DNA of 64,000 bases. Source: Actinomycetota bacterium (lineage in GTDB: Bacteria > Actinomycetota > Geothermincolia > Geothermincolales > RBG-13-55-18). Position 1 is the first letter of the stretch. Each line of letters begins with the position of its first letter. The notes below the pieces were generated by a model. That model had not been told where the DNA came from. It saw nothing but the letters and a program-made list of their open reading frames with translations, and searched no databases. The DNA is taken from the NCBI GenBank assembly GCA_014360645.1, contig JACIXD010000002.1:62001-126000 (forward strand). The letters are read 5' to 3'. Position numbers and translations under genes: made by a program. Positions 5,721 through 20,146 of the stretch are shown in pieces.

Positions 5721-6947
5721 TCATTGCTGGGACGTGAACTGGGTGATGAGTGAGAATATGGGCATGTACAGCGCGATGACGATGGTGCCCACCACCAGGC
5801 CCAGAAACACGATGAGCAGGGGCTCCAGCAGGGAGGTGAGGGCCTCCACCGTGGCAGAGACCTCGGAGTCGTAGAAATCCGAGACCTTGTTGAGCATGGT
5901 GTCCAGGGCCCCCGTCTCCTCGCCGATGGCCAGCATCTGGGTTACCATGGGGGGGAAGAGCGGGCTCTGGCCCAGGGGTCGCGCGATGGAATCCCCCTCC
6001 TTGACACCCGACCTGACGTTCTCCACCGCCTCCGCCACCAGCACATTGCCCACGGTGTTGGAGGTTATCTCCAGGGCCTGCAGGATGGGCACGCCGCTGG
6101 ACACCAGGGTCCCCAGGGTGCGCGAGAAGCGCGACAGCGCCATCTTGTGGAAGAGGCTCCCGAAGACGGGGAGCTTGAGCTTCAGGGCGTCGAGCTTGCG
6201 CCGCCCTCCCGGCGTCTTCAGCCATCTTCTCAGGAAAACCAGGCCCACGATGAGCAGTATTACAAGTATCGCGCCCTTCCAGCTGACCAGGAAATGGCTG
6301 ATGCTCATGATGATGCGGGTCAGGAAGGGGAGGGTCGCGCCTATCTGGCTGAACATCTTCTCGAAGGAAGGCACCACGAACACCAGCATTACGACGAGCA
6401 GGAGTATGGATATGGCGAACATGGCCACGGGATAGGTGAGGGCGGACTTTATCTTGCGCCTGATCTCGTCCTCGCTCTCCAGGGTGTTGGCGATGCGCAG
6501 CAGCACGTCGTCGAGGACGCCGCCGATCTCTCCCGCCTTCACCATGCTGGTGTAGAGGTCCTTGAAGATGTTGCCGTGCTTGGACATGGCCTCCGAGAGG
6601 GATCGGCCCATCTCCACCTCGTGCTGCACGTCCGCCACCACCTCGGAGAGCACCGGGCTCTCGGTCTGCTCCGAGAGGATGCTCAGGCACTTCACCAGGG
6701 GAAGGCCCGCGTTGATCATGGTGGCGAACTGGCGCGTGAAGACGGTCACGTCCTTGCCCTTGACCTTGGGCTGGAAGATGCGGATCTCCTTCTTGGCGAG
6801 GGAGACCTTCTCCTCCTCTATGGCGATGATGAAATAGCCCATCTCCCGCAACCGCTGCGAGACCAGGGCCTCGTTGTCAGCCTCCAGTTTGCCGGTGATT
6901 ATCTTGCCCTGTTTATCCCTTACCCGGTAGGAATAGGTCTGCGCCAA
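5721..6947 (-). CDS. pilC: Type IV pilus inner-membrane platform protein PilC
   Basis: Polytopic platform protein of the GspF/PilC family (408 residues), turned by the PilB and PilT motors. There are two copies of the T2SSF domain. The first spans about residues 65-190, with VFTRQFATMINAGLPL and the GEIGGVLDDVLLRIA motif. The second spans about 270-395, with FSRTLGTLVSSGVPILQAL and GEETGALDTML. Each is followed by long hydrophobic helices (about 165-190, 215-240 and 375-400). The start is TTG 6947 with a GGAG about nine bases upstream. It has its own likely promoter at 7010-7037. Confidence 0.95.
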   Translation of the reverse strand: MAQTYSYRVRDKQGKIITGKLEADNEALVSQRLREMGYFIIAIEEEKVSLAKKEIRIFQPKVKGKDVTVFTRQFATMINAGLPLVKCLSILSEQTESPVLSEVVADVQHEVEMGRSLSEAMSKHGNIFKDLYTSMVKAGEIGGVLDDVLLRIANTLESEDEIRRKIKSALTYPVAMFAISILLLVVMLVFVVPSFEKMFSQIGATLPFLTRIIMSISHFLVSWKGAILVILLIVGLVFLRRWLKTPGGRRKLDALKLKLPVFGSLFHKMALSRFSRTLGTLVSSGVPILQALEITSNTVGNVLVAEAVENVRSGVKEGDSIARPLGQSPLFPPMVTQMLAIGEETGALDTMLNKVSDFYDSEVSATVEALTSLLEPLLIVFLGLVVGTIVIALYMPIFSLITQFTSQQ

Positions 6948-7155: not shown

Positions 7156-8223
7156 CTACCCTATTAGCCTGATCATCTCTTCGCGGTTGTTGCAGCGCCC
7201 CATGGCCACCTCGTAGCTGATGATCCCCCGTTTGTAGAGGGCGGCTATGGAATGGTCCATGGTCTGCATCTTGTACTGCCCCCCCGCCTGCATGGCGGAA
7301 TATATCTGGTGGGCCTTGGCCTCGCGGATGAGGTTGCGGATGGCCGAGGTGGCCACCATCACCTCCACCGCGGGGATGCGGCTCTGCCCGTCCTTGGTGG
7401 GCAGGAGCTGCTGGGTGACGATGGCCTGTATGGTCCCCGCGAGCTGCATGCGCACCTGCTGCTGCTGGTAGGTGGGGAAGACGTCGATGATGCGGTCGAT
7501 GGTCTGGGGCGCGTCCTGGGTGTGCAGGGTGGCGAAGACCAGGTGCCCGGTCTCCGCCGCCGTGAGCGCCGTGGAGATGGTCTCCAGGTCCCTCATCTCC
7601 CCCACCAGGATCACGTCCGGGTCCTGGCGCAGGACGTACTTCAGGGCGTTGGAGAAGGAATGGGTGTCGCCTCCCACCTCGCGCTGGTTGACGATGCACT
7701 TCTTGTGCACGTGCAGGAACTCGATGGGATCCTCCACGGTGATGATGTGCAGGTTGCGCGTCTCGTTGATGAGGTTGATCATCGCCGCCAGGGTGGTGGA
7801 CTTCCCCTGCCCGGTGGGGCCGGTGACGAGGATGAAGCCTCGCGGCAGCATGCAGAACTCCTCCAGCACCTGCGGGAGGTTCAGCTCCTGTATGGTCTTG
7901 ATGCGGTAGGGGATGATGCGGAAGGCCGCTCCGATGCTGTTGCGCTGGAAGTAGGCGTTGACGCGGAAGCGCGCGCTTCCGGGCACGGAATAGGATAGGT
8001 CGTACTCGAGGTTGCTCTCCAACTGCTCCCTCTGGCGGGCGGTGAGGATGCTGTAGACCATGTCCCTGGTGTCGTTGGAGGTCAGCCTGGGGTATTCTTC
8101 CAGGCGCACCAGCACCCCGTTTATGCGCATCACAGGCGGCGCTCCCACCGTGATGTGCAGGTCAGAAGCCCCCCTTACCAGGACCTCCTCCAGCAGTTCG
8201 TTGATATCGAGTTTCACAGCCAA
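7156..8223 (-). CDS. pilT: Pilus retraction ATPase PilT
   Basis: Hexameric cytoplasmic ATPase that powers pilus retraction and twitching. The 355 residues include an N-terminal PAS-like domain (about 1-100, with GASDLHI), a Walker A loop GPTGQGKST near 130 (Gln where Ser is usual), an Asp box (ITVEDPIEF), Walker B (ILVGEMRD) and a His box (TGHLVFATLHT). The C-terminal AIRNLIRE motif specific to PilT is exact. The start is TTG 8223 with GGAGG seven bases upstream. Gap to pilB: 176 bases without a recognised gene. Confidence 0.97.
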   Translation of the reverse strand: MAVKLDINELLEEVLVRGASDLHITVGAPPVMRINGVLVRLEEYPRLTSNDTRDMVYSILTARQREQLESNLEYDLSYSVPGSARFRVNAYFQRNSIGAAFRIIPYRIKTIQELNLPQVLEEFCMLPRGFILVTGPTGQGKSTTLAAMINLINETRNLHIITVEDPIEFLHVHKKCIVNQREVGGDTHSFSNALKYVLRQDPDVILVGEMRDLETISTALTAAETGHLVFATLHTQDAPQTIDRIIDVFPTYQQQQVRMQLAGTIQAIVTQQLLPTKDGQSRIPAVEVMVATSAIRNLIREAKAHQIYSAMQAGGQYKMQTMDHSIAALYKRGIISYEVAMGRCNNREEMIRLIG

Positions 8224-8399: not shown

Positions 8400-10067
8400 C
8401 TACATGATGACCCTGAGCACCTCGTCGATGGAGGTGATGCCCTGCCTCACCTTTATGAAACCCTCGTCGCGCAGCGTCCTCATGCCTTCCGACTTGGCCA
8501 TCTCCGCTATCTCCACGTGGGGCGCGTTGCGCGCCACCAGGTGCTCGATGTTCTCCGTCACCTCCAGCACCTCATAGATGCCCACCCTCCCCTTGAAGCC
8601 GGTGTTGTTGCAGGCGGGGCAGCCGCGGGGCCTGAAGAGCACCTCGTCGGTCCTCTCGTCCCAGGGGAAACCTATCTTCGCCAGGTATTCCGGGTCGGGC
8701 TCGTAGGCCTCCTTGCAGCGTTCGCAAAGCCTCCGCGCCAGCCTCTGGGAGCTCACGCAGTCCACCGCCGAGGCGATGAGGAAGGGCTCGATGCCCATCT
8801 CCAGCAGGCGGGTGAGGGCGCTGGGGGCGTCGTTGGTGTGCAGGGTAGAGAGCACCAGGTGCCCGGTGAGGGCCGACTCGATGGCGATCTGCGCCGATTC
8901 CGGGTCGCGGATCTCGCCGATCATCACGATGTCGGGGTCGCAGCGCAGTATGGAGCGCAGGGCGGAGGCGAAGGTCAGTCCCGCCTTGTAGTGGACCTGT
9001 ACCTGGTTGATGAGGGGCAGGCGATACTCCACCGGGTCCTCGACGGTGATGATGTTGAGCTTTATGGAGTTGAGCACGTTGAGGGTGGCGTAGAGGGTGG
9101 TGGTCTTGCCGCTGCCTGTGGGGCCGGTGACCAGGATGGTCCCGTAGGGCTTGTGGAAGCTGCGGGAATATTTTTCCAGAAGGTCCTCGCTGAAGCCCAG
9201 TTCCTCGAGGCTCATGAGGGAGGCGCTCTTGTCCAGGATGCGAAGCACGACCTTCTCGCCGTGGATGGTGGGAAGGGAGGCCACGCGCAGGTCAACCGGC
9301 TTGCCCAAGATGTCCACCGAGGCCCTGCCGTCCTGGGGAAGGCGTTTTTCGGCGATGTTCATGTCCGCCATGACCTTTATCCTCGCCACCACCCCCGGAT
9401 GGATGGCCTTGGGGTTCCTCCTGATCTCGTGAAGCACGCCGTCGATGCGGTAGCGCACCCGCACGTCGTGCTCCATGGGCTCGATGTGCACGTCGCTGGC
9501 GCGGTCGTTCACCGCCTCGCTGATGAGGAGGTTGACGTACCTGACGATGGGGGCGTCGTCCGCCTCCGCCTCCTCCCCCGTCTCTCTCGTCTCCCCGGCC
9601 ATCTCCTCGCCGCCGATGTCCAGGTCGGTCTCGGTGCGGCAGTAGCGGTTGATGGCGGAGATGATGTCCTCCTTGGTGGCCACTAGGGGCTCTATGTCCA
9701 TGCCCGTCATGATGCGGATGTCGTCCAGCGCGAAGACGTTGGTGGGATCGGCCATGGCCACCAGCAACTTGTCCCCCTCGAAACCCACCGGGATGAGGGT
9801 GTAGCGCCGGGCCACCTCTGCGTCCACCAGCGAGGAGGCGGCGATGTCCACGTCGTAGTTGGCGAGGTCCACGTACCTGAGGCCGATCTGGCGCGCCAGG
9901 ATGGAGGTGAGGGCCCCCTCGCTGACCATCTTCATGTCGATGAGCACCCTGCCCAGGGTCTCCCCGGTCTCCTGCTGGCGCTGCAGGGCCTGCTCGAGCT
10001 GTTCCTCGGTTATGATGCGGTTCTTGACCAGTATCTGTCCCAGCTTTTCCTTTTTCGGCTTCTGCAT
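8400..10067 (-). CDS. pilB: Pilus extension ATPase PilB with MshEN-type N-terminus
   Basis: Hexameric ATPase for pilus polymerisation, about 555 residues. The N-terminal part (about 8-61) holds two MshEN-like repeats, KLGQILVKNRIITEEQ and TLGRVLIDMKMVSEGA, each followed by the L-x3-L-x2-Q ending. This repeat type binds cyclic di-GMP in MshE, although the leading Arg is Lys or Thr here. The motor core has GPTGSGKTT (Walker A), TVEDPVEY (Asp box), MIGEIRD (Walker B) and GHLVLSTLHTND (His box). A zinc-binding pair CERC...CPAC lies near residues 466-505. The start is chosen as ATG 10067 with GGAAAG upstream. A longer frame from TTG 10103 would overlap aroE. Confidence 0.95.
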   Translation of the reverse strand: MQKPKKEKLGQILVKNRIITEEQLEQALQRQQETGETLGRVLIDMKMVSEGALTSILARQIGLRYVDLANYDVDIAASSLVDAEVARRYTLIPVGFEGDKLLVAMADPTNVFALDDIRIMTGMDIEPLVATKEDIISAINRYCRTETDLDIGGEEMAGETRETGEEAEADDAPIVRYVNLLISEAVNDRASDVHIEPMEHDVRVRYRIDGVLHEIRRNPKAIHPGVVARIKVMADMNIAEKRLPQDGRASVDILGKPVDLRVASLPTIHGEKVVLRILDKSASLMSLEELGFSEDLLEKYSRSFHKPYGTILVTGPTGSGKTTTLYATLNVLNSIKLNIITVEDPVEYRLPLINQVQVHYKAGLTFASALRSILRCDPDIVMIGEIRDPESAQIAIESALTGHLVLSTLHTNDAPSALTRLLEMGIEPFLIASAVDCVSSQRLARRLCERCKEAYEPDPEYLAKIGFPWDERTDEVLFRPRGCPACNNTGFKGRVGIYEVLEVTENIEHLVARNAPHVEIAEMAKSEGMRTLRDEGFIKVRQGITSIDEVLRVIM

Positions 10068-10086
10068 ACGCGTCTTTCCGTCCTCG

Positions 10087-10971
10087 TCATCCCGACCGTT
10101 CAAGCGCCCGCCCGAGGGCCTCGCGCATCTCCTCCAGCGGCGGCTCCAAGCCCGTCCAGAGCCGGAAGGAGATGGCCGCCTGGTGCAACAGCATGCCCTC
10201 GCCTCCCGCCGTCATCGCTCCCCTCGCTCCCGCCTCGCGCAGGAAGGCGCCGGGCCCGCGCCCGTACTTCAGGTCCACCGCCCAGGTCCCAGGGGCAAGC
10301 TCCCGGTAGTCGAGGGGCAGGTCCTCTTCCCCCGTGAGGGGAGTGCAGTTCACCGCCAGGGAGCATCCCGCGATCTCTCGCATGCCCTCACGGTCGAATC
10401 CCTTAACTGATATCTCGGTCGAGGCCACCGCCTTCTTTAACGCCTCCGCGAGGTCATCGGCTCTGCGTCTCGTACGGTTGACCACCACGATGCGCGACGC
10501 CCCCTCCCTCGCGGCCGCCAGCGCCACCGCCCGCGCCGCTCCTCCCGCCCCGATGACCATGACCCCGGCACCCCTGACGGCGATGCTCCTCTCGCGCATG
10601 AAGGCGCGGAACCCCTCGGCATCGGTGTTGTGTCCCACCAGCACATCGCCCGCCGCGACCACGGTGTTCACCGCCCCCAGGACCTCCGCGTCACCTTCCA
10701 GGCGGTCCACGAGCTCCGCGACCCGCAGCTTGTGGGGTATGGTGACGTTGAAGCCGCGGAATCCCAGCGCCCTCAGCCCCTCAACCGCCGCCCCCACCTC
10801 CCCGGGCGCGGCGCGCAGGGGGAGGTAGACCCAGTTCATGCCGTAGTACCTGAAGGCGGCGTTATGCATGGCCGGCGACAGGGTGTAGGAGATGTCGTGT
10901 CCGAGGATCCCCGTGAGCTCGGTGTCCCCGTCTATTTCCACCTGCGTTCCCTCCGTCGCCGTTTGCTCCAT
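10087..10971 (-). CDS. aroE: Shikimate dehydrogenase
   Basis: Reduces 3-dehydroshikimate to shikimate with NADPH. About 294 residues. The N-terminal substrate domain has HDISYTLSPAMHNAAF and the catalytic GFNVTIPHK lysine loop. The NADP domain has IGAGGAARAVA and the NRTRRRAD dinucleotide-specificity loop, and the C-terminus has the GGEGMLLHQAA motif. The start is uncertain: ATG 10971 or TTG 10998, both without a clear ribosome binding site. It sits 20 bases before pilB, well away from aroC and aroK, which it normally accompanies. It may share a transcript with pilB. Confidence 0.95.
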   Translation of the reverse strand: MEQTATEGTQVEIDGDTELTGILGHDISYTLSPAMHNAAFRYYGMNWVYLPLRAAPGEVGAAVEGLRALGFRGFNVTIPHKLRVAELVDRLEGDAEVLGAVNTVVAAGDVLVGHNTDAEGFRAFMRERSIAVRGAGVMVIGAGGAARAVALAAAREGASRIVVVNRTRRRADDLAEALKKAVASTEISVKGFDREGMREIAGCSLAVNCTPLTGEEDLPLDYRELAPGTWAVDLKYGRGPGAFLREAGARGAMTAGGEGMLLHQAAISFRLWTGLEPPLEEMREALGRALERSG

Positions 10972-11053: not shown

Positions 11054-11599
11054 CTATTTATCCAGGGTCTTGAGGATATCGTAGAGCAGCCCGAGGAGCA
11101 CCTTTTTCACGTCCTCCTTTTCCAGGGCGTTGCAGGGGATGATCTGGATGTCGCCGTCGATGTTGAGCTCCTTCCTGATGGTGTCGATCACCTGCGAGGG
11201 ATCCCCGTCGGGCATCCTGGTGGCCCCGATGACGTAGGGAGCGTCGGAGAGGGTGGCGAAGAACTCCAGGATGCGCCGTCCCTCGGCGAAGGTCTCCGGA
11301 CGGCTCGCGTCCAGCATGAGGATATAGCCCAGCATCCCCTCGGAGAGTATCTGCCACATGAAATCGAACCTCTCCTGACCCGGGGTGCCGAAGAGGTAGA
11401 GGACGATGTCTTTGGAGATGGTTATCCTTCCGAAGTCCATGGCCACGGTGGTCTCGGCCTTCACCCGGCGGGTGGAATCCGAAATGGCGCGCTCGGTGGA
11501 GACGATGGATATCTCGCTGATGCTCTTAATAAAGGTGGTCTTCCCCGCGCTGAACGGCCCGGTGACCACGATCTTGAAGGACCTCAACTGGCCATCCAC
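11054..11599 (-). CDS. Small Ras-like GTPase (MglA/CvnD type)
   Basis: A 181-residue P-loop GTPase. G1 is GPFSAGKTTFIKS, with the bacterial-type FSAGKT loop seen in actinobacterial conservon (CvnD) GTPases. G3 is FGTPGQERF in place of DxxG. The usual G4 signature NKxD/TKxD is replaced by GATRMPD, so guanine recognition may be unusual. Such GTPases work with Roadblock proteins as regulators, as in Myxococcus MglA/MglB. The gene lies three bases after the DUF4388 gene and downstream of three Roadblock genes. The start is GTG 11599 or TTG 11587, because the AAGGAG is very close to the GTG. Confidence 0.88.
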   Translation of the reverse strand: MDGQLRSFKIVVTGPFSAGKTTFIKSISEISIVSTERAISDSTRRVKAETTVAMDFGRITISKDIVLYLFGTPGQERFDFMWQILSEGMLGYILMLDASRPETFAEGRRILEFFATLSDAPYVIGATRMPDGDPSQVIDTIRKELNIDGDIQIIPCNALEKEDVKKVLLGLLYDILKTLDK

Positions 11600-11602
11600 T
11601 CC

Positions 11603-14600
11603 TTACAGTCTCTTGATGCCGTCGATTATCCTCATGATCAGGCTCTTGGTGACGGCCTTGTCCCTTTTTACCTTCGGGACCGGCTTCCCTTTATCTAATT
11701 CATCCGCCTCCACCACTTCTCCTTTCGGCTTCACGGGTATCTTTATCTTCTTCGTGGGCTGGGGAGCAGCGGCTCCCGTCAGTTCCGCGAGTTCCCTCTC
11801 GAGGGAATAGCTCTCCAGGTCGAAACCTTCCGCCTCCTCCTCGCCGTATGCCTCCGTCCTTGCGGCCGCCGCGCCTTCCGCTCCACCAAGCGTCGCGGGT
11901 ACTTCCTCCACCGTCGGCGCGTACGGCATGCCCTTTTCCCCGCCGCGCTCGGACAGTAAATCATGTGTACCGATAGCTGCCGCCTCTCCCATCTGCGCTT
12001 CGCCCTTCGAGGCGGTCTCGTCCGCAACCTCGCTGGTAAGACCTTCCAACAGGTCTATGGGCTGTTGGGGTGGGGCCTCCTGGGCGGGGGGCGCGGCCGC
12101 GGTCTCGGGAGCGGGGGCCTGGGCCGAGGGCGCGGGGGCGGCCATGGCCGCGGGCTCCACCGCCGGAGGGATCTCCGGGACGAAGGTCTCGGGCGGAACC
12201 GCGGCGGCGGGCGCCTCCGTCTCCGCTGTCTGTGCCCCTTCCGCGCCCGTCTCTATGAGGCTTTCGAGGATGTCTATGGGCTGTTGGGGTGGGGCCTCCT
12301 GGGCGGGGGGCGCGGCCGCGGTCTCGGGAGCGGGGGCCTGGGCCGAGGGCGCGGGGGCGGCCATGGCCGCGGGCTCCACCGCCGGAGGGATCTCCGGGAC
12401 GAAGGTCTCGGGCGGAACCGCGGCGGCGGGCGCCTCCGTCTCCGCTGTCTGTGCCCCTTCCGCGCCCGTCTCTATGAGGCTTTCGAGGATGTCTATGGGC
12501 TGTTGGGGTGGGGCCTCCTGGGCGGGGGGCGCGGCCTCCACCGGCCCTTCCGCGGCGAGGATCTCCTCCTCCAGGGCGGCTATCTCCTCCTGCAAGGGCA
12601 TGAGATCGGGAGACGACAGGGCTTTTTCCGCTTCAAGGATCTCCTTCTCGAGCTCCTCGATCTCGGCCATCAGCGGGCTGGCGCCTCCCACGGGGCCCCC
12701 ATCGTCCCCGGGTTCGAGGAGAGCCGGCGCGGCCTCCATATCGAAGAAGGTCTCCTTGCCGCTTCCCTGCAGAACCGCTTCCGCGATGGTCTCCGGCAGG
12801 GCATCCTCAACTTTCAGCGCGGTCTCGACGGGCGGCAGGTCCTCCAGCATCACGCTCTCCAGGACCTCCAGTCCCGGCCCCGCGCCCTCCTCGGCGAGGG
12901 CCACGTCCGCTCCGCTCGGCGCCTCGGCGAGGAGGGCGGTCTCCCGGACTGGCGCCGCTCCCTCCGCGCTTACGGGGATGTCCTCCAGCATCACGCTCTC
13001 CAGGACCTCCAGTCCCGGCGGTTCAAGGCCCACCCCGGAAACCGAGGCCGCCACCCTTTCCTCGACCTCCTCCAGGGGCAACTTCAGGGTGGCCGCCTCG
13101 CCGGGCGATTCCGGCTCCTCTTCCACCGGCGCCCGCTCCGGCTCCACCACGGCCCCGCCGCGCCGGAACGCGCCGCCCAGGATCTTTTCGGGGTCGATGG
13201 CCGCCCGCTCGGGAGGACGGAGACCTGCATCCGCAGCAACCTCCCTCTCCCTAGGAGAGATCTTATCCAGGTGGCTCTTCCACTCCTCCGGTATCTCCTC
13301 CGGCTCCAGTTCCGCTATCTCCTCATCCGCGGCCAGCCTGGCGATCTTTCCGTATTTCTTCTCCAGATAAGCCCTCTTGGCCGCCCTCGCCTCCACGCTC
13401 TCGTGCGTCATGGGTTCATCGGATGGGCGCCGTCCCTCCTCGGGGACCGCCGGCTCGGGCTCCCTTGTCCCCTCTTCCTCTTCCTCGTCGAGGCTGACTC
13501 CCTCCGGCAGCAGTTGGCTGATCTTCTTCTTGAGCTCTTCCAGCTCGGCTTCCTTGCTCTCTATCTGGAGAACCTGCTCGGCCTCCAGGGACTCCTCAAC
13601 CGCCGCCTCCTTCATCTCCCGTATGCGCTCCGACTGCTTTCTCAGCTCCTCCTCGAGCACGCTCCGGACCCTCGAGGGATCGGGCACGGCAGTGGGCACC
13701 TCCACCTCCGGCGCGGCCTCCACTCCCCCGCCCTCCCGCACCTCTGGCTCCATCTCTCGGGCATGCATTTGATCGAGTGACGGCTCGACCGGGGGGGCTT
13801 CCTCCTCCACCAGTATCAGCGGCTCGCTCTCCTCCCCCAGGTCTATCTCCACCGCCTCCAGGTCTGCGGCGACCGCGTTCTCCTCGCCCTCTTCCTCGCG
13901 GACCGCTTCCCCCTCCTCGGCTCCGAGCACGGGGGCGATCGCATCCTCGCGCACCCTTTCCTCCATGGGTGCCGGCGGTGCGGTCCCCTCCGGGGGCAGC
14001 GCGGTCTCCTCCAGCGAGGGCTCGCATGGGAGGGAGATATCGGGAAGCGATACCTTCGGCTCTTCCGGCGGCTGAGACGGCGCTTCCTCCTCCAGTACCG
14101 CTTCCAGCTCCATGATCCCCAAGGCCTCGCCCACCGCATCCGCGATACGCGAGGTCCTCTCCTCCTCGTATAGGAGGGCTTCCTCCGGCGTTGCCGCCTC
14201 CTCCCGGGGCGGGGCTTCCGGTGCCTCCGTCATGACGTCGGCCACCGTCTCCGCGACCTCCACCACCTCCTCCCCGGCCTCCTCCACGAACCCTTCCGGT
14301 TCTCCAGCGGGGAGCTCCACCACCGCGGGTTGGTCGCTCTCCACCCTTTCCAGCTCTTTCGCGAGCTGCTCCAGTCTGCGATCGGCCTCTCTTTCCGCCT
14401 CCCGGGGGGTCACGTTCTCCAGCAGGCCGGATCCTATGAGCCCGTAAAGGATCTTGCAGGTGTGCAGGGTGCTCATTCCCGTGAGCTCCACGATCTGGCG
14501 CACCGTCTTCTCGCCGTCGATGTGGGTGAGGACCATCCATTCCTCCGGCGTAAGGCTGATCTGCGCCGCCTCCCTGCCCTGCATAGAGGTCATCTTGAAC

Positions 14601-15118
14601 ACCACGTCGAGATTGGGGATCTTCTTCTCGATGCGGTTCCACTCATCGAGGCGGCGCGAACCCTCCATGATCAGCTCCTCGGTGCTGATGGAGAGTCCTA
14701 TGTCCTCCTCGGGGAAGACCACGCCGGGCTGGAAATCGAACTCGCCGTCCGACCAGCGCAGCATCTCGAACACCGCGTCCTGTATCTGCTCCTCCACGAA
14801 TACCTCGAGCTGCTCCTTGGTCAGGTATCCGAGCCGGATGAGGAGTTGGCCAAGCCTCTGCCCCCGCGCGGTGGTCTTCTGGAGCTGCAGGGCCTCCTCG
14901 AGCTGCGCCTTGGTGATTATCCCCGCGTTGAGTAGCTTCAGGCCCAGGGATTGGCGCTTCCAGTTGGTGGTTGCGAAGAACACCTCGCCGTTGCGGAAAC
15001 AGATATAACCCCTCGCCTGCCCGCGGGTGAGGTTCAGCGTCCCGTTCTTCTTGCCGAAGTTGAGCAGCTGGAAGAGATCGGGGATACTGAAGTCCTTCAG
15101 GCTTCCCTTGAGCGCCAT
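11603..15118 (-). CDS. DUF4388 (PATAN-type) scaffold with long acidic disordered region
   Basis: 1171 residues. An N-terminal DUF4388/PATAN-like domain (1-130) contains two MshEN-like stretches, [16 protein letters not shown] near 57 and [16 protein letters not shown] near 88. A winged-helix-like region (about 188-235) follows. The remaining roughly 900 residues are an acidic Glu/Ala/Pro-rich, presumably disordered linker. Within it, LE-V/I-LES-type peptides recur, two Glu-rich helices lie near 795-840, and a 73-residue block is exactly duplicated in tandem. The C-terminus turns basic ([10 protein letters not shown]; then [16 protein letters not shown]). PATAN proteins regulate PilB in cyanobacteria, so a role in pilus control or as a GTPase/Roadblock scaffold is plausible but unproven. 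ATG 15118 with a GGGAAGGA ribosome binding site. Confidence 0.85.
12053..12537 (-). repeat. Perfect 219-bp in-frame tandem duplication (2.2 copies)
   Basis: Bases 12053-12271 and 12272-12490 appear identical throughout, and a partial third copy of about 47 bases runs to 12537 before diverging. The unit is 73 codons, so the frame is kept. It encodes a Pro/Ala-rich linker ending in the [15 protein letters not shown] peptide. Identity at synonymous sites points to a recent duplication or ongoing homogenisation. Confidence 0.95.
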
Positions 15119-15304: not shown

Positions 15305-15703
15305 TTATTCATACTCTATACGGAACTCCGACTTGATGATCTCGGCGATCTTCTTCGCCGCTCCCTTCACGTCGTACAGAACCAGCCCTAGCTTGCTCCC
15401 CTTGCGCACCAGGGCCGTGAGCACCGCATCCTCTCCCGCCGCCATGAGGAATACGTATCCGGAGTTGCCTTCCACGAAGACCTGGGCCAGCTCGCCCCTT
15501 CCCAGTTCCTCCGACGTCCTCTCCCCGAGGCTCAGGAGGGCGGCCGACATGGCGCCAAGCCTGTCCTCCTCCAGGGTGTTGGGTAGCACCGAGGCCATGA
15601 CCAGGCCGTCCATGCTCACCACCGCCGCCGCGTCCACCTCCGCCGACCTGGAGACCAGCTCGTTCAGGGCGTTGCGAAGTCTCTCCTCCCTGGATTCCGC
15701 CAA
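15305..15703 (-). CDS. Roadblock/LC7-domain protein 1
   Basis: A 132-residue single-domain Roadblock/LC7 (longin-like) protein. An N-terminal amphipathic helix precedes AAAVVSMDGLVMAS. A central LGERTSEELGRGELAQV helix-strand and a C-terminal GLVLYDVKGAAKKIAEII stretch follow. Roadblock proteins of this type dimerise and regulate small GTPases, as MglB does for MglA. It lies 186 bases before the DUF4388 gene. The start is TTG 15703 with GGAGG eight bases upstream. It has paralogues directly upstream at 15766 and 16205. Confidence 0.9.
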   Translation of the reverse strand: MAESREERLRNALNELVSRSAEVDAAAVVSMDGLVMASVLPNTLEEDRLGAMSAALLSLGERTSEELGRGELAQVFVEGNSGYVFLMAAGEDAVLTALVRKGSKLGLVLYDVKGAAKKIAEIIKSEFRIEYE

Positions 15704-15765: not shown

Positions 15766-16140
15766 CTATTCGAAAAGCCTGGCCAGCTCCTCGGCGGTGC
15801 GCTTGCCCTCCATGAACACCACCCCCATCTTGGCCTCCGGCTTCACCAGCAGCGAGAGCAGGGCGTCCGGGCCGCACTGCACCAGCAGCAGGTATCCCTG
15901 GTCTCCCTTGATGTATACCTGTTCCAGGTTGCCCCGCTTGAGGTCGCGGGCCGCCCTTTCCCCCATGCTGAGCACCGAGGCCGAGAGGGCGCCGATCATC
16001 TCCTCGTCGGCCTCGTCGGAGATATCCGACGCCAGCGCCATGGCATCGGAGCTTATCAACACCGCGGCCTCTATCTCCTGCAGATTCGATCTCAGGTTCC
16101 TGAGGACGGCGTTCATCCTCTCGATTCTTTCCGAAGCCAC
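15766..16140 (-). CDS. Roadblock/LC7-domain protein 2
   Basis: A 124-residue Roadblock/LC7 protein, closest in pattern to protein 1: AAVLISSDAMALASDI, then SMGERAARDLKRGNLEQVYI, then GVVFMEGKRTAEELA. The two share the MGER/LGER helix and the strand that follows, so they are probably tandem paralogues that may form heterodimers. The start is GTG 16140 with GGAGG about six bases upstream. 62 bases separate it from protein 1. Confidence 0.9.
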   Translation of the reverse strand: MASERIERMNAVLRNLRSNLQEIEAAVLISSDAMALASDISDEADEEMIGALSASVLSMGERAARDLKRGNLEQVYIKGDQGYLLLVQCGPDALLSLLVKPEAKMGVVFMEGKRTAEELARLFE

Positions 16141-16204: not shown

Positions 16205-16558
16205 TCACAGCGCGGCCTCTATGGCCGGGAGGTATTTACGGATATCGTACCTGGCCTTTCCCAGGTTGGCCCCCGCCGGCAGGATGGAGACCAGTATGGC
16301 GTCCGCGCCCACGGCGCTCATCAGTATGGCCCCCTTCTCGAACTCGAACATCGCCTGCGCCATGGGGCCTTGGGCGAGCTCCAGGCCGATCACCTCGGCC
16401 GCGCCAAGTGAGCTGGGAGCGATGGCCCCCACGGCCTCGAGCTGGCTGGCGTCCTCGCCGGCGGTCTCGATGATGAACCCGTCCCTCCCGACCACCAGCG
16501 CGGCGCGCACGGTGCCGGTCGCCACCAGTTCCTCCAGGACCTTCCTCAGATCGGGCAA
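16205..16558 (-). CDS. Roadblock/LC7-domain protein 3
   Basis: A 117-residue Roadblock/LC7 protein, more divergent than the other two. VRAALVVGRDGFIIETA opens the fold, GPMAQAMFEFEKGAILMSAV forms the central strands and the end is GKARYDIRKYLPAIEAAL. The N-terminal and C-terminal helices are shorter. The start is TTG 16558 with GGAGG nine bases upstream. It is the first gene of the GTPase/Roadblock module. Three different Roadblock proteins with one GTPase suggest several alternative regulatory pairs. Confidence 0.88.
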   Translation of the reverse strand: MPDLRKVLEELVATGTVRAALVVGRDGFIIETAGEDASQLEAVGAIAPSSLGAAEVIGLELAQGPMAQAMFEFEKGAILMSAVGADAILVSILPAGANLGKARYDIRKYLPAIEAAL

Positions 16559-16984: not shown

Positions 16985-17275
16985 CTAGAAGATGGCCCTG
17001 CATTTCATCTCCGCCCGGGGATCGCCGTCCGGCCGCCGCGACCCGTCATCCTCCACCTCCACGGTGATGGCCCGGGCGCGGCAGCCCAGCTCGCAGCTCA
17101 GGCACCTTATGCAGCTCTCGGGATTGGCCACCTGGGGCATTCCCTCCTCACCCCACTCATAGACGGGATACTGCGCTCCCCGCGTCTGAGGGCAAATCTC
17201 CATGCACTCACGGCAGGCCACGCACCTCTCTTCGTCCACGCGGATATGCGAGGCCGTAAGGTCCTTATCTTCCAT
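16985..17275 (-). CDS. 2x[4Fe-4S] ferredoxin-type electron carrier
   Basis: 96 residues with two cluster motifs, CVACRECMEICP (about 18-29) and CIRCLSCELGCRA (about 55-67). The spacing of the first is classical; the second has CxxCxxCxxxC without the usual Pro. An insert of about 25 residues separates the motifs. It is the last gene of the hydrogenase-like cassette, 21 bases after the large subunit, and would pass electrons to or from the small subunit. ATG 17275 with GGAGG six bases upstream. Confidence 0.92.
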   Translation of the reverse strand: MEDKDLTASHIRVDEERCVACRECMEICPQTRGAQYPVYEWGEEGMPQVANPESCIRCLSCELGCRARAITVEVEDDGSRRPDGDPRAEMKCRAIF

Positions 17276-17296
17276 CTCATACCTCCGGACACGATC

Positions 17297-18616
17297 CTAG
17301 TGCAGGGCACAGGGGATGCAGGGGGCGAAGGAGCGCGCCGCCGTTTCCAGCAGCACCGCGGCCCGCCTGTCCCCCTCCGGTCCCTCCCCCGCGGAACGGG
17401 CTCCCGCCAGCAGGCACCGCTCCAGAGCTCCGACGTTGAACTGCAGGGGGGCGGTGATGGAAAGGGTCTTTACCGTCCCCTCGGCGTCCAGCTCCAAACC
17501 GTAGACCAGCATCCCCTCCGGGGCCTCCACCGCCCCCGTCCCCGCGCCCCCGCCCGGGGACGCCGTGGCCCTCGATCCCTCGCCGGGAGATGCCCGCAGG
17601 AGCCGCGTGATCATCTCCCAGGCGTGGATCATCTCCAGTATCCTGGCGGCATGGGCGAGCATGCTGCGCCGGAAGGGAAATCCCCACTGCGTCTTGAGCT
17701 CCTCGAGTTCGGCGTCAGCCAGCTCGCTTCCGTACCCGCCGTACACGTTCACGCGGGCGAGGGGGCCCACGCGCACACTGCCCACCTCCCTGATCTCCGC
17801 CACCCGGATATGTGAGTGAGGGCTGTTCCGCTCCTCGATGCTCGCCTGCAACTCCTCGAGCGAGAGGTTGGCGCGCTCCCCCGCCCCCTCTTCGAAAAGG
17901 ACCGCCCTGCCGCCCAGCAGCCCCATCTCCCCTTCCGAGCGCAGGGCGAGGCACGGCGACGTCTCCTCTCCTAGGGATTCCACAACCTCCTCGTTACGGC
18001 GCAGGAGGAGCTTGATCAGCCGAGCCGTCTCCACCAGCAGCGACCTGGCCTCGCCCAGTTTCTCCGCCAGCCGACTTCTCCTCTCCTCTCCCATGGGTCT
18101 GACCACTCCTCCGGGCAGCACGTTCACGGCATGCACCGCCCTGCCCCCCGCCTCGCGGAGCACCAGCGTGCCCAAAGACTTGAGGGCCATGAACCTGCGC
18201 ACCACCTCCTCGTCCACGCGGTGGATGCTTATGATGTTGCGCAGGCCGGGGTCGGAGGACGGCAGCAGCAGGTCGGGCAGGCTGTGCACGGTCAGGGATA
18301 CCGCGTGGCGCTCCAGCAACTGTCCCCACATGCACAGCTCGCGCAGGAGTCCCGCCGCCGCTGGTACCTCGATGCCCAGTGCCGCCTCCACCGCCCTGGC
18401 CGCCGCCACCTGATGAAAAACGGAGTCCCCTCCGCAGATCCGCGACACCAGGGTCACAAGGTTGTCCACGTGGGAGCCCCTCGCGAAGAGGTCGAATCCC
18501 CGGTAGCCGAAGGCCTGCAGCCGCGCCTCTCCTGGACTGCCCCCCTCGTCCCTCACCAGCCTTATGGAGGCGTTGCCGCTGATCCTGGTCACCGGATCTA
18601 TCACCAGGTCCGCCAT
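17297..18616 (-). CDS. Degenerate [NiFe]-hydrogenase-like large subunit
   Basis: 439 residues with the fold signature of the group 3 [NiFe] hydrogenase large subunit but altered active-site motifs. The N-terminal RIEGH motif is RISGN (residues 11-15), so the proton-transfer Glu is lost. The L1 motif RxCGxCxxxH is RICGGDSVFH (59-68), so the bridging Cys is Asp64, encoded by GAC. The C-terminal motif DPCxxCxxH is APCIPCALH (431-439), with both Cys kept but Asp changed to Ala. The protein ends exactly at that His, so there is no peptide for a maturation protease to remove. Hydrogen activity is doubtful; a redox or sensory role with ferredoxin is possible. Confidence 0.88.
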   Translation of the reverse strand: MADLVIDPVTRISGNASIRLVRDEGGSPGEARLQAFGYRGFDLFARGSHVDNLVTLVSRICGGDSVFHQVAAARAVEAALGIEVPAAAGLLRELCMWGQLLERHAVSLTVHSLPDLLLPSSDPGLRNIISIHRVDEEVVRRFMALKSLGTLVLREAGGRAVHAVNVLPGGVVRPMGEERRSRLAEKLGEARSLLVETARLIKLLLRRNEEVVESLGEETSPCLALRSEGEMGLLGGRAVLFEEGAGERANLSLEELQASIEERNSPHSHIRVAEIREVGSVRVGPLARVNVYGGYGSELADAELEELKTQWGFPFRRSMLAHAARILEMIHAWEMITRLLRASPGEGSRATASPGGGAGTGAVEAPEGMLVYGLELDAEGTVKTLSITAPLQFNVGALERCLLAGARSAGEGPEGDRRAAVLLETAARSFAPCIPCALH

Positions 18617-18709
18617 ATGTCACCCTTCCCGGATCGCGGCGCCCGGACGCCCTCGCCCGACATCCTCTCCACGCCGCCAATTCGATCCTTCATGACGTCC
18701 TCGCTCCCG

Positions 18710-19618
18710 CTAGCGCCTTCCCTCCCCGCCCAGGCGTCGCAGCAGGGTGGCCGTGCCTCCCGGACGCCGCCTGCGCAGGAGCGGCTCGGCAAGGCAGTAC
18801 CTGAAAAAGCTGTGCGCGGTATCCTTTATCTCCCTTTCCAGCACCTCTTTCCGCTCCCCCGTCGCCCTCTCCATCCTCCGCAAGGTCTCCCCCTTAAGGT
18901 CCTGAAAGGGCGGGAGCAGCGCCTCGTCACAGGGACCCCTGCACCCTCCGCAGGGGACGCCGTAGGAACTGGGACAGAGCGCATTGCACCCGTCCCTGGT
19001 CAGGGGGCCCATGCAGATGAAGCCCTGCTCCAGAAGGCATTTGCCGGCCTCGGGCACCGAGGAGAGCAGCCTGCGGAGCCCCTCCCGCGTCCGCGGCGGC
19101 GAGGTCACCCCGCATTCGGAACACACCGTCGCTCCCAGGCGCGACGGAAGGGTTCCCGAGAGAGCCAGTTTTAAAAAGCCCTGCAAGAGATCCTCCGGGG
19201 GAGGGCACCCAGGCAGGAAGGCGTCCACGCTCACGTAGGCGTCCACGGGCAGGAGGCGCTTCACCCCCTGCGGCGCACCCTCGATAACCGCCCCCTCCCC
19301 GTATCGCATCCGCATCATCCTCTCCTCTGTCAGGAGGTCCGCCAGCCCCGGCACCCCGCCGAAACAGGCGCAGGTCCCCAGGGCTACCAGCTTATCCGCT
19401 TTCTGTCTCGCTTCCCTCAGCCTGCGGAAATCGTCTCCGTGCCTCACCGTTCCCTCCAGCAGCAGCAGGTCCACCTCCGGGAGCTCCTTCTGGTCGAGCA
19501 GGAAGGGGGCGTAGGGGATGGCGTTCTCGCCGATGAAGGTGTAAAAATATTCCTCCATGCTGAGGAGGACGTACTGGCACCCCAGGCAGGAACTCAGGGA
19601 AAGCACCGCAACCCGCAT
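18710..19618 (-). CDS. [NiFe]-hydrogenase-type small subunit (MvhG/sulfhydrogenase delta-like)
   Basis: 302 residues with the cluster ligands of an MvhG-like small subunit: SCLGC at 10-14, GTCACFGGVPG near 81-91, PGCPP near 135 and a Cys-rich C-terminal part (CSECG, then CNALCPSSYGVPCGGCRGPC) for further [4Fe-4S] clusters. There is no Tat signal, so it is cytoplasmic. All expected ligands seem present, unlike the partner large subunit. ATG 19618 lies three bases after the V4R-like gene, with GGAG upstream. Gap to the large subunit: 93 bases. Confidence 0.92.
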   Translation of the reverse strand: MRVAVLSLSSCLGCQYVLLSMEEYFYTFIGENAIPYAPFLLDQKELPEVDLLLLEGTVRHGDDFRRLREARQKADKLVALGTCACFGGVPGLADLLTEERMMRMRYGEGAVIEGAPQGVKRLLPVDAYVSVDAFLPGCPPPEDLLQGFLKLALSGTLPSRLGATVCSECGVTSPPRTREGLRRLLSSVPEAGKCLLEQGFICMGPLTRDGCNALCPSSYGVPCGGCRGPCDEALLPPFQDLKGETLRRMERATGERKEVLEREIKDTAHSFFRYCLAEPLLRRRRPGGTATLLRRLGGEGRR

Positions 19619-19621
19619 CTG

Positions 19622-20146
19622 TCACTCCAGCGTCGTCTTGAGCATCACCAGGCAGGAGGCCGGACCCGCGTGCTCGGTGCGCAGGTCCACCCTGCGCCCG
19701 AAAACGCTCTCCAACATGCCCGCGGCGTAGCCGTGCATGGTCTGGCAGGCGACCCCTCCCAGCGCCACTCCTGCTCCCAGGCAGGCGGTCCTGATGGGAC
19801 AGCGCTCGAAGAGTAGGCGGATGAACATCTCCTCCACCTCGTATACCCAGAAATCGTCATCTTCCTTGTTCTTCCAAAGAGAGACCTTCCACACCTCGGG
19901 TGAGCCCCGGAAGACCCATTTCAGCGCCTTCTCTATGTCGTCGGTGGCGTCGTAGGCGGAGGCCTCACGCTTCCCCAGGTCCTTGCCGGCGAAGTACATG
20001 AGCTGGGGGGTGGACCTCCCGGTGACCTCTCCCCCCGCTTGGTCGAAAACGGCCAGGGCCTCGGAAAGGGCGCGCAGGCGGTCCAGCAAGACCTCCGTTT
20101 CCTCCAGCATCTTCCACCTTTCGGGATCGAAGCCCTCTCGGGCCAC
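19622..20146 (-). CDS. V4R-domain-like protein linked to the hydrogenase-like cassette
   Basis: About 174 residues. A helical N-terminus (about 1-45) precedes a domain that resembles V4R/4VR (heme-NO-binding-like fold): GRSTPQLMYFAGKDLG, then FERCPIRTACLGAGVALG, then CQTMHGYAAGMLESVFGR with conserved Cys, His and Gly, and a final Glu...Cys strand. V4R domains bind small hydrophobic ligands or metals in sensory and accessory proteins. It is the first gene of the cassette and lies three bases before the small subunit. The start is uncertain: GTG 20146 (GGAG ten bases upstream) is preferred to ATG 20110. The family assignment is by pattern only. Confidence 0.7.
   Translation of the reverse strand: MAREGFDPERWKMLEETEVLLDRLRALSEALAVFDQAGGEVTGRSTPQLMYFAGKDLGKREASAYDATDDIEKALKWVFRGSPEVWKVSLWKNKEDDDFWVYEVEEMFIRLLFERCPIRTACLGAGVALGGVACQTMHGYAAGMLESVFGRRVDLRTEHAGPASCLVMLKTTLE

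Follow-up and report, generated by a model that had tools for sequence, protein, structure and literature searches.

A conserved hydrogenase-derived electron-transfer cassette, very probably not a hydrogenase, upstream of Roadblock, GTPase and type IV pilus genes

In a 64,000-nucleotide stretch of an Actinomycetota genome (positions 62,001 to 126,000 of contig JACIXD010000002.1, assembly GCA_014360645.1; hereinafter the window), the minus strand carries at 16985-20110 a four-gene cassette encoding a V4R-like protein, the small and large subunits of a [NiFe]-hydrogenase-like pair and a ferredoxin, with open reading frames and motifs exactly as an earlier prediction from the bare sequence had described them. 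We conclude with high confidence that the encoded complex is not a [NiFe] hydrogenase, and we consider it very likely that the four genes specify a functional, conserved complex. Our overall reading is that a non-hydrogenase electron-transfer complex derived from group 3 (Mvh/Vhu-type) enzymes tunes the adjacent Roadblock/GTPase/pilus system, a statement that, taken whole, we place a little short of an even chance.

The large subunit (439 residues; 17297..18616, on the minus strand like all features of the window given below) has the fold and the homology of group 3 enzymes and lacks their full set of four cysteines, their catalytic residues and their dependence on Hyp proteins. It matches the NiFeSe_Hases family (PF00374) with an E-value of 1.3e-14 and the VhuA model with an E-value of 9.6e-58 over residues 1-404. 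The best-matching models are VhuA, ShyA and FrhA, with only a weak match to NuoD, and the best matches among solved structures are methanogen enzymes of group 3. An AlphaFold model (22 relatives) has a predicted local distance difference test score (pLDDT) of 90.3 and superimposes on MvhA (5odc_F) with a template modelling score of 0.95.

The departures from a hydrogenase lie in the motifs. RISGN, RICGGD and APCIPCALH followed directly by the stop codon are all present as first reported, and three of the four metal-binding cysteines remain. The second L1 Cys, the bridging ligand, is replaced in the alignment by Asp64 (18425..18427), whose codon GAC would need two substitutions to encode Cys, while the L2 residues Cys433 and Cys436 and the terminal His439 are retained (CIPCALH, 17300..17320). 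The original prediction also drew attention to the end of the protein at the last His; the observation holds but does not in itself point to degeneration, because the same terminus is seen in 11 of 40 canonical relatives from the phylum. Two changes that the prediction missed are more telling than those it listed: Glu367 (17516..17518) in place of the PRG-motif Arg, the catalytic canopy residue, and Leu in place of Thr391. In Desulfovibrio enzymes the equivalents of these two positions, the PRG Arg and the Ser/Thr at 391, are established from structures as the residues that hold the iron-bound cyanide ligands.

Homologues place these changes in a lineage. The window's assembly, 3.38 Mb in size and 98% complete, belongs to a genus that takes in Candidatus Solincola daggyaiensis and the Actinomycetota metagenome-assembled genome Ch49, with Candidatus Geothermincola as sister lineages, and the wider group is Candidatus Geothermincolia, a class of uncultured bacteria. 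The class name is that of PMC10746217. We numbered the families of the class f1 (that of the window) to f7. Large-subunit homologues with shared departures occur in f1 (14 genomes), f2, f4 and f6, and the clade they form is monophyletic (support 99/97) and separate from canonical relatives. Its two halves, (f1, f2) and (f4, f6), branch as expected for vertical descent.

A search for homologues with Asp at the second L1 position found CxxD in all 14 members of f1, each with an intact L2 CxxC, so that the normal CxxC motifs that would have spoken against the prediction are absent from the close homologues. At the same position f2 and f4, like relatives elsewhere in the phylum, keep Cys. Most sister families retain all four cysteines, yet share most of the other active-site losses. 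Glu367 is found in 14/14 f1 sequences, where canonical relatives have Arg (30/30 and 40/40). The canopy position 103, otherwise Ser or Asp, is Arg in every f1 member; the Asp before PCxxC (position 431) has become Ala or Ser; and position 13, the L0 Glu of canonical enzymes, is variable. Leu replaces Thr391 throughout the class clade (22/22). By comparison, Glu13, the four cysteines, Arg367, Thr391 and Asp431 are found without exception in 40 additional canonical relatives from the phylum. The residues Cys61, His68, Cys433 and Cys436 are invariant in f1 (14/14 for the two L2 cysteines), and the terminal His is present in 12 of 14.

Thirty-five alignment columns are fixed both in f1 and in canonical enzymes; 27 are unchanged and eight have switched (V28P, C64D, S103R, L111H, R367E, H372Y, T391L and D431A). 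Most of the eight fall at known first- or second-shell active-site positions. Pairwise ratios of nonsynonymous to synonymous substitution rates (dN/dS) for the large subunit are 0.09-0.26, which, together with the fixed switches, points to a concerted and then fixed redesign rather than erosion. Further losses are seen elsewhere in the clade (L033, L016, L017): in the f6 protein neither the second L2 Cys nor the terminal His remains, and the proteins of genus g6 within f1 lack the terminal His, while their partners keep all cluster ligands.

The distribution of cofactor machinery bears directly on whether these proteins could be hydrogenases. Among 31 genomes of the class, 24 encode HypD; all 24 have a canonical [NiFe] large subunit, as against none of the seven others (Fisher p 3.8e-7). 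The cassette, by contrast, is unrelated to HypD, being present in 19 of the 24 HypD genomes and five of the other seven (p 0.64). None of the five cassette genomes without HypD has a canonical [NiFe] enzyme or a HypE above the family cut-off, and four of the five are 95-99% complete. Since the Hyp proteins are needed to make the NiFe(CN)2CO cofactor (PMC12134894), no cassette protein from these five genomes can contain it, four-Cys members included. The window's genome does encode HypD and HypE, for a separate canonical enzyme of its own (group 1), and HypD lies on contig C8 whereas the cassette lies on C2; here the missing ligand and pocket residues suggest that the large subunit is likewise without NiFe(CN)2CO. 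The proposal that the complex is no longer a hydrogenase is thus strongly supported, both because the catalytic residues Arg, Glu and Asp and the cyanide-binding Thr are missing and because there are cassette genomes without HypD. The accompanying suggestion of a redox or sensing complex, or of a different metal site, is compatible with everything found.

Cluster ligands in the electron-transfer partners are intact, as predicted. The small subunit (302 residues; 18710..19618) resembles VhuG and MvhG (Oxidored_q6, E-value 2.8e-22; VhuG model, 6.9e-49) and keeps 12 cysteines in 21/21 sequences: C11, C14, C83 and C138 for the proximal cluster, including the C11xxC14 motif, and eight in the C-terminal part. 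The ferredoxin subunit (96 residues; 16985..17275; Fer4, E-value 3.2e-9), of the 2[4Fe-4S] type, keeps eight in 18/18. The small subunit probably carries three [4Fe-4S] clusters, and by homology the two proteins together would form a chain of five, ending at the rebuilt pocket.

The first gene of the cassette encodes the putative V4R/TRAPP-fold subunit (162 residues; 19622..20110), whose start we set at 20110 from start conservation among relatives, although the frame itself is open to 20230. Its position and a fold search bear out the original description of a V4R-like protein encoded first, but Pfam makes no V4R call for the window protein; matches stay below the cut-off, with a best E-value of 0.016, in 4 of 13 family members. 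The assignment comes from alignment, AlphaFold and Foldseek. The model (pLDDT 89.7) matches MopR and PoxR with E-values of about 3e-5 (MopR 2.6e-5, Foldseek), TRAPP/Bet3 proteins with Z up to 11.8 (TPC6) and the V4R protein MJ1460 with Z 8.7, and Cys104, Cys122 and Cys153 are invariant in the 13 aligned members. V4R-type domains sense small ligands, as in PoxR and MopR (PMC10933270), and the V4R domain of MsvR acts as a redox sensor by means of cysteines (PMC3729527).

Whether V4R-small-large-ferredoxin is a conserved gene order has a clear answer: the genes keep the same order and the same place through the class. Every contig long enough reads alaS-ruvX-mltG-V4R-small-large-ferredoxin-Roadblock (two or three copies)-DUF4388-GTPase-aroE-pilB-pilT-pilC, in one direction throughout. 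The V4R gene is present in 23 genomes, all of which also encode the large subunit; no genome without the large subunit has it. At the same site mltG is followed directly by Roadblock genes, with the cassette absent, in one f4 genome (G303), both f5 genomes and f7; in the f3 genome no recognisable cassette was found between mltG and DUF4388. Co-occurrence of the V4R and large-subunit genes, together with clean absence at one site, indicates that the four genes are one unit, present or absent as a whole. The further objection considered at the outset, that cassette and substitution might be missing from related genomes, fails in the same way, for the cassette occurs in f1, f2, f4 and f6 and the Asp in 14/14 of f1. 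Outside the class, only canonical large subunits appeared among the stronger matches examined in 84,980 species genomes (with the patterns of alignment A2) and in 396 genomes of the phylum, metagenomes lying outside this coverage.

Downstream of the cassette the window encodes three Roadblock/LC7 proteins (all PF03259): R1 (16205..16558; E-value 2.2e-12), which a tree places only in f1 and f2, R2 (15766..16140; 1.7e-15) and R3 (15305..15703; 1.9e-18), the core type, which is retained where the cassette is absent. We rejected the idea that one Roadblock paralogue tracks the cassette: R2-type proteins are found in cassette genomes, but cassette-free f5 has a diverged second Roadblock gene before R3. 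Then follow a DUF4388 protein of the PATAN type (11603..15118; PF14332, E-value 1.4e-37), a small Ras-like, MglA-like GTPase (11054..11599; ATP_bind_1, 2e-15; Ras, 1.3e-6), a PilB-type type IV pilus ATPase (8400..10103; T2SSE, 5.9e-141, with MshEN), a PilT-type ATPase (7156..8223; T2SSE, 8.7e-47) and a PilC-type inner membrane protein (5721..6947; T2SSF, 8.4e-67).

We propose that electrons pass through the ferredoxin and the three clusters of the small subunit to or from the rebuilt pocket, which may hold another metal or a bound small molecule, and that the V4R subunit may bind a small ligand or use its conserved cysteines to sense redox state. In what is the weaker step, the neighbouring Roadblock proteins could then read the state of the complex, whether redox or ligand-bound, and so tune the Ras-like GTPase and type IV pili. 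Sensing is favoured because the cassette includes a V4R subunit, has no catabolic neighbours and stands invariably before Roadblock, PATAN-type DUF4388 and Ras-like GTPase genes. MglB-type Roadblock proteins regulate MglA in the control of Myxococcus type IV pili (PMC9481161), and genes for PATAN proteins sometimes lie close to that for MglA (PMC4316618). That the output of the complex is regulation of the adjacent GTPase and pilus system is, on the strength of gene neighbourhood, nearly an even call. Two observations weigh against it. Roadblock, DUF4388 and, except in f7, GTPase genes persist without the cassette (f5, f7, G303 and, in part, f3), so the switch does not need the cassette; and the unrelated housekeeping genes alaS, ruvX, mltG and aroE keep their order in the same block, which makes synteny with the Roadblock, GTPase and pilus genes weak, suggestive evidence.

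A more specific form of the proposal starts from the f1 pocket, in which the four-Cys site became an invariant Cys3Asp arrangement with an invariant Glu at the position of the former catalytic Arg. The pocket could be a new Cys3Asp metal site, perhaps with Glu367, that ends the Fe-S relay, its redox state and the V4R ligand sensor together forming the input to a Roadblock/Ras-like GTPase switch governing type IV pili. We regard this version as rather unlikely in all its detail; if true, it would mean that the hydrogenase fold has been turned into an electron-wired sensor.

The alternative that most deserves weight is a soluble reductase resembling MBS, in which the clusters feed electrons to a substrate (a sulfur compound, or one that is quinone-like or delivered by the V4R subunit) in the former hydrogenase pocket, and the position near motility genes is merely inherited gene order. 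We hold it to be possible, at well under even likelihood. MBS lost two of the four cysteines and reduces polysulfide at the proximal cluster, and complex I lost all four (PMC7684303); the relay of the cassette is intact (12 + 8 Cys), V4R folds bind hydrophobic ligands, and the housekeeping genes in the conserved block are what inherited order would leave. Unlike in MBS, however, all four proximal-cluster ligands are kept, the three cysteines and the Asp are invariant although a cluster-based mechanism does not need them (the two remaining cysteines of MBS are dispensable; PMC7684303), and the lack of adjoining catabolic genes fits a reductase poorly.

The remaining explanations are far less probable. 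Three retained cysteines, and the HypD and HypE of the window's genome, could suit an active [NiFe] hydrogenase with an unusual Asp ligand, whether an H2 enzyme or an H2 sensor of the HupUV/HoxBC type, and regulatory hydrogenases also lack the C-terminal extension (PMC8229454); this is very improbable, given that the catalytic Arg, Glu and Asp and the cyanide-binding Thr are gone and that five cassette genomes have neither HypD, nor a full HypE, nor a canonical enzyme, when Hyp is required (PMC12134894). Still less credible is an Fe(CN)2CO maturation scaffold comparable to HoxV and HupK, which are large-subunit look-alikes, HoxV being without enzyme activity (PMC12134894): the cassette occurs in genomes without HypD or canonical hydrogenase, includes a ferredoxin and a small subunit of its own in which every cluster is kept, and is well separated from the hyp genes. 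Equally hard to credit is a decaying pseudogene cassette. The lost terminal His of g6 and the losses in f6 (L033) could be read as decay, but dN/dS is low, the frames are open in nearly all genomes, D64, R103, E367 and L391 are invariant in 14/14, and the cluster ligands of the partners do not vary. Chance or a frame error was rejected, as the motifs are conserved in 14 genomes.

Compared with the methanogen Hdr-linked group 3c enzymes MvhAG and VhuAG, the cassette has the same fold, two-subunit core and three-cluster small subunit, but lacks the RxEGH Glu and His, the catalytic Arg, the cyanide-binding Thr and the Asp before PCxxC, has Asp for the second L1 Cys, and adjoins V4R and small ferredoxin genes in place of MvhD or Hdr. 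Like MBS and NuoBD of complex I, it pairs hydrogenase-derived large and small subunits in which the [NiFe] site is lost and the electron relay kept. Those complexes, however, are membrane-bound, belong to group 4 and lost two or four cysteines, whereas the cassette belongs to group 3, appears soluble, has no membrane subunits and holds its Cys3Asp set invariant; and one iron of the MBS proximal cluster is not Cys-ligated, whereas all four cysteines are kept in 21/21 cassette small subunits.

The idea of a hydrogenase-derived sensor is familiar from the regulatory hydrogenases HupUV and HoxBC, which, like the cassette protein, have no C-terminal extension. Those enzymes have a complete NiFe(CN)2CO site and pass their signal to a histidine kinase, whereas the cassette has no such site and has Roadblock and GTPase neighbours. 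The grouping of a small GTPase, Roadblock, PATAN-type DUF4388 and type IV pilus genes recalls the MglA/MglB polarity switch with PATAN, the difference being a hydrogenase-derived four-gene unit directly upstream; no hydrogenase-derived input to MglA/MglB was found described in the literature searched. With V4R/TRAPP (Bet3) proteins, among them the sensor domains of PoxR and MopR, MsvR, MJ1460 and TRAPPC3, the first subunit shares the fold and a Cys-bearing C-terminal half, but its identity to them is only about 10-17%, and it stands alone as a subunit whose gene accompanies those of a redox complex.

Complexes that lost the [NiFe] site but reused the relay are already known from the membrane line leading to MBS and complex I. 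The cassette adds a distinct instance from the soluble group 3 line, with stages visible within one bacterial class: four cysteines still present but no cofactor machinery, next the replacement of Cys by Asp and of Arg by Glu in a single family, and finally additional losses. These stages form a natural series in which to study what a hydrogenase fold is capable of without hydrogen, and the cassette may supply a bacterial Ras-like switch with an electron-wired input. The family, and the hydrogenases of its taxon, had no description in the literature searched, most subscription papers lying beyond that search. Annotation probably labels its proteins hydrogenases, so that metagenome surveys are likely to count them towards H2 metabolism, as they should not.

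Some observations stand apart from these questions. In G303, the f4 genome without the cassette, a distant large-subunit relative of 472 residues (L131:1027-2442, on G303:C25) lies beside a NuoN/HyfB-like membrane protein and has RVCARS at L1 and SFCACAYCMDH near its end; from its sequence it looks like another cofactor-less large subunit, of group 4 (Ehr-like), in a HypD-less genome. The f7 locus (L154, G321) reads mltG-Roadblock-DUF4388-aroE-pilB and lacks the GTPase, which nearly every other member of the class has. The DUF4388 protein of the window has a long, low-complexity tail, acidic and rich in Ala and Pro, with near-perfect internal repeats, and its homologues range from about 900 to 1440 residues. 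The GTPase is 84-99% identical in most f1 and f2 genomes, far above the 41-77% of the adjoining large subunit, indicating that it is under much stricter constraint.

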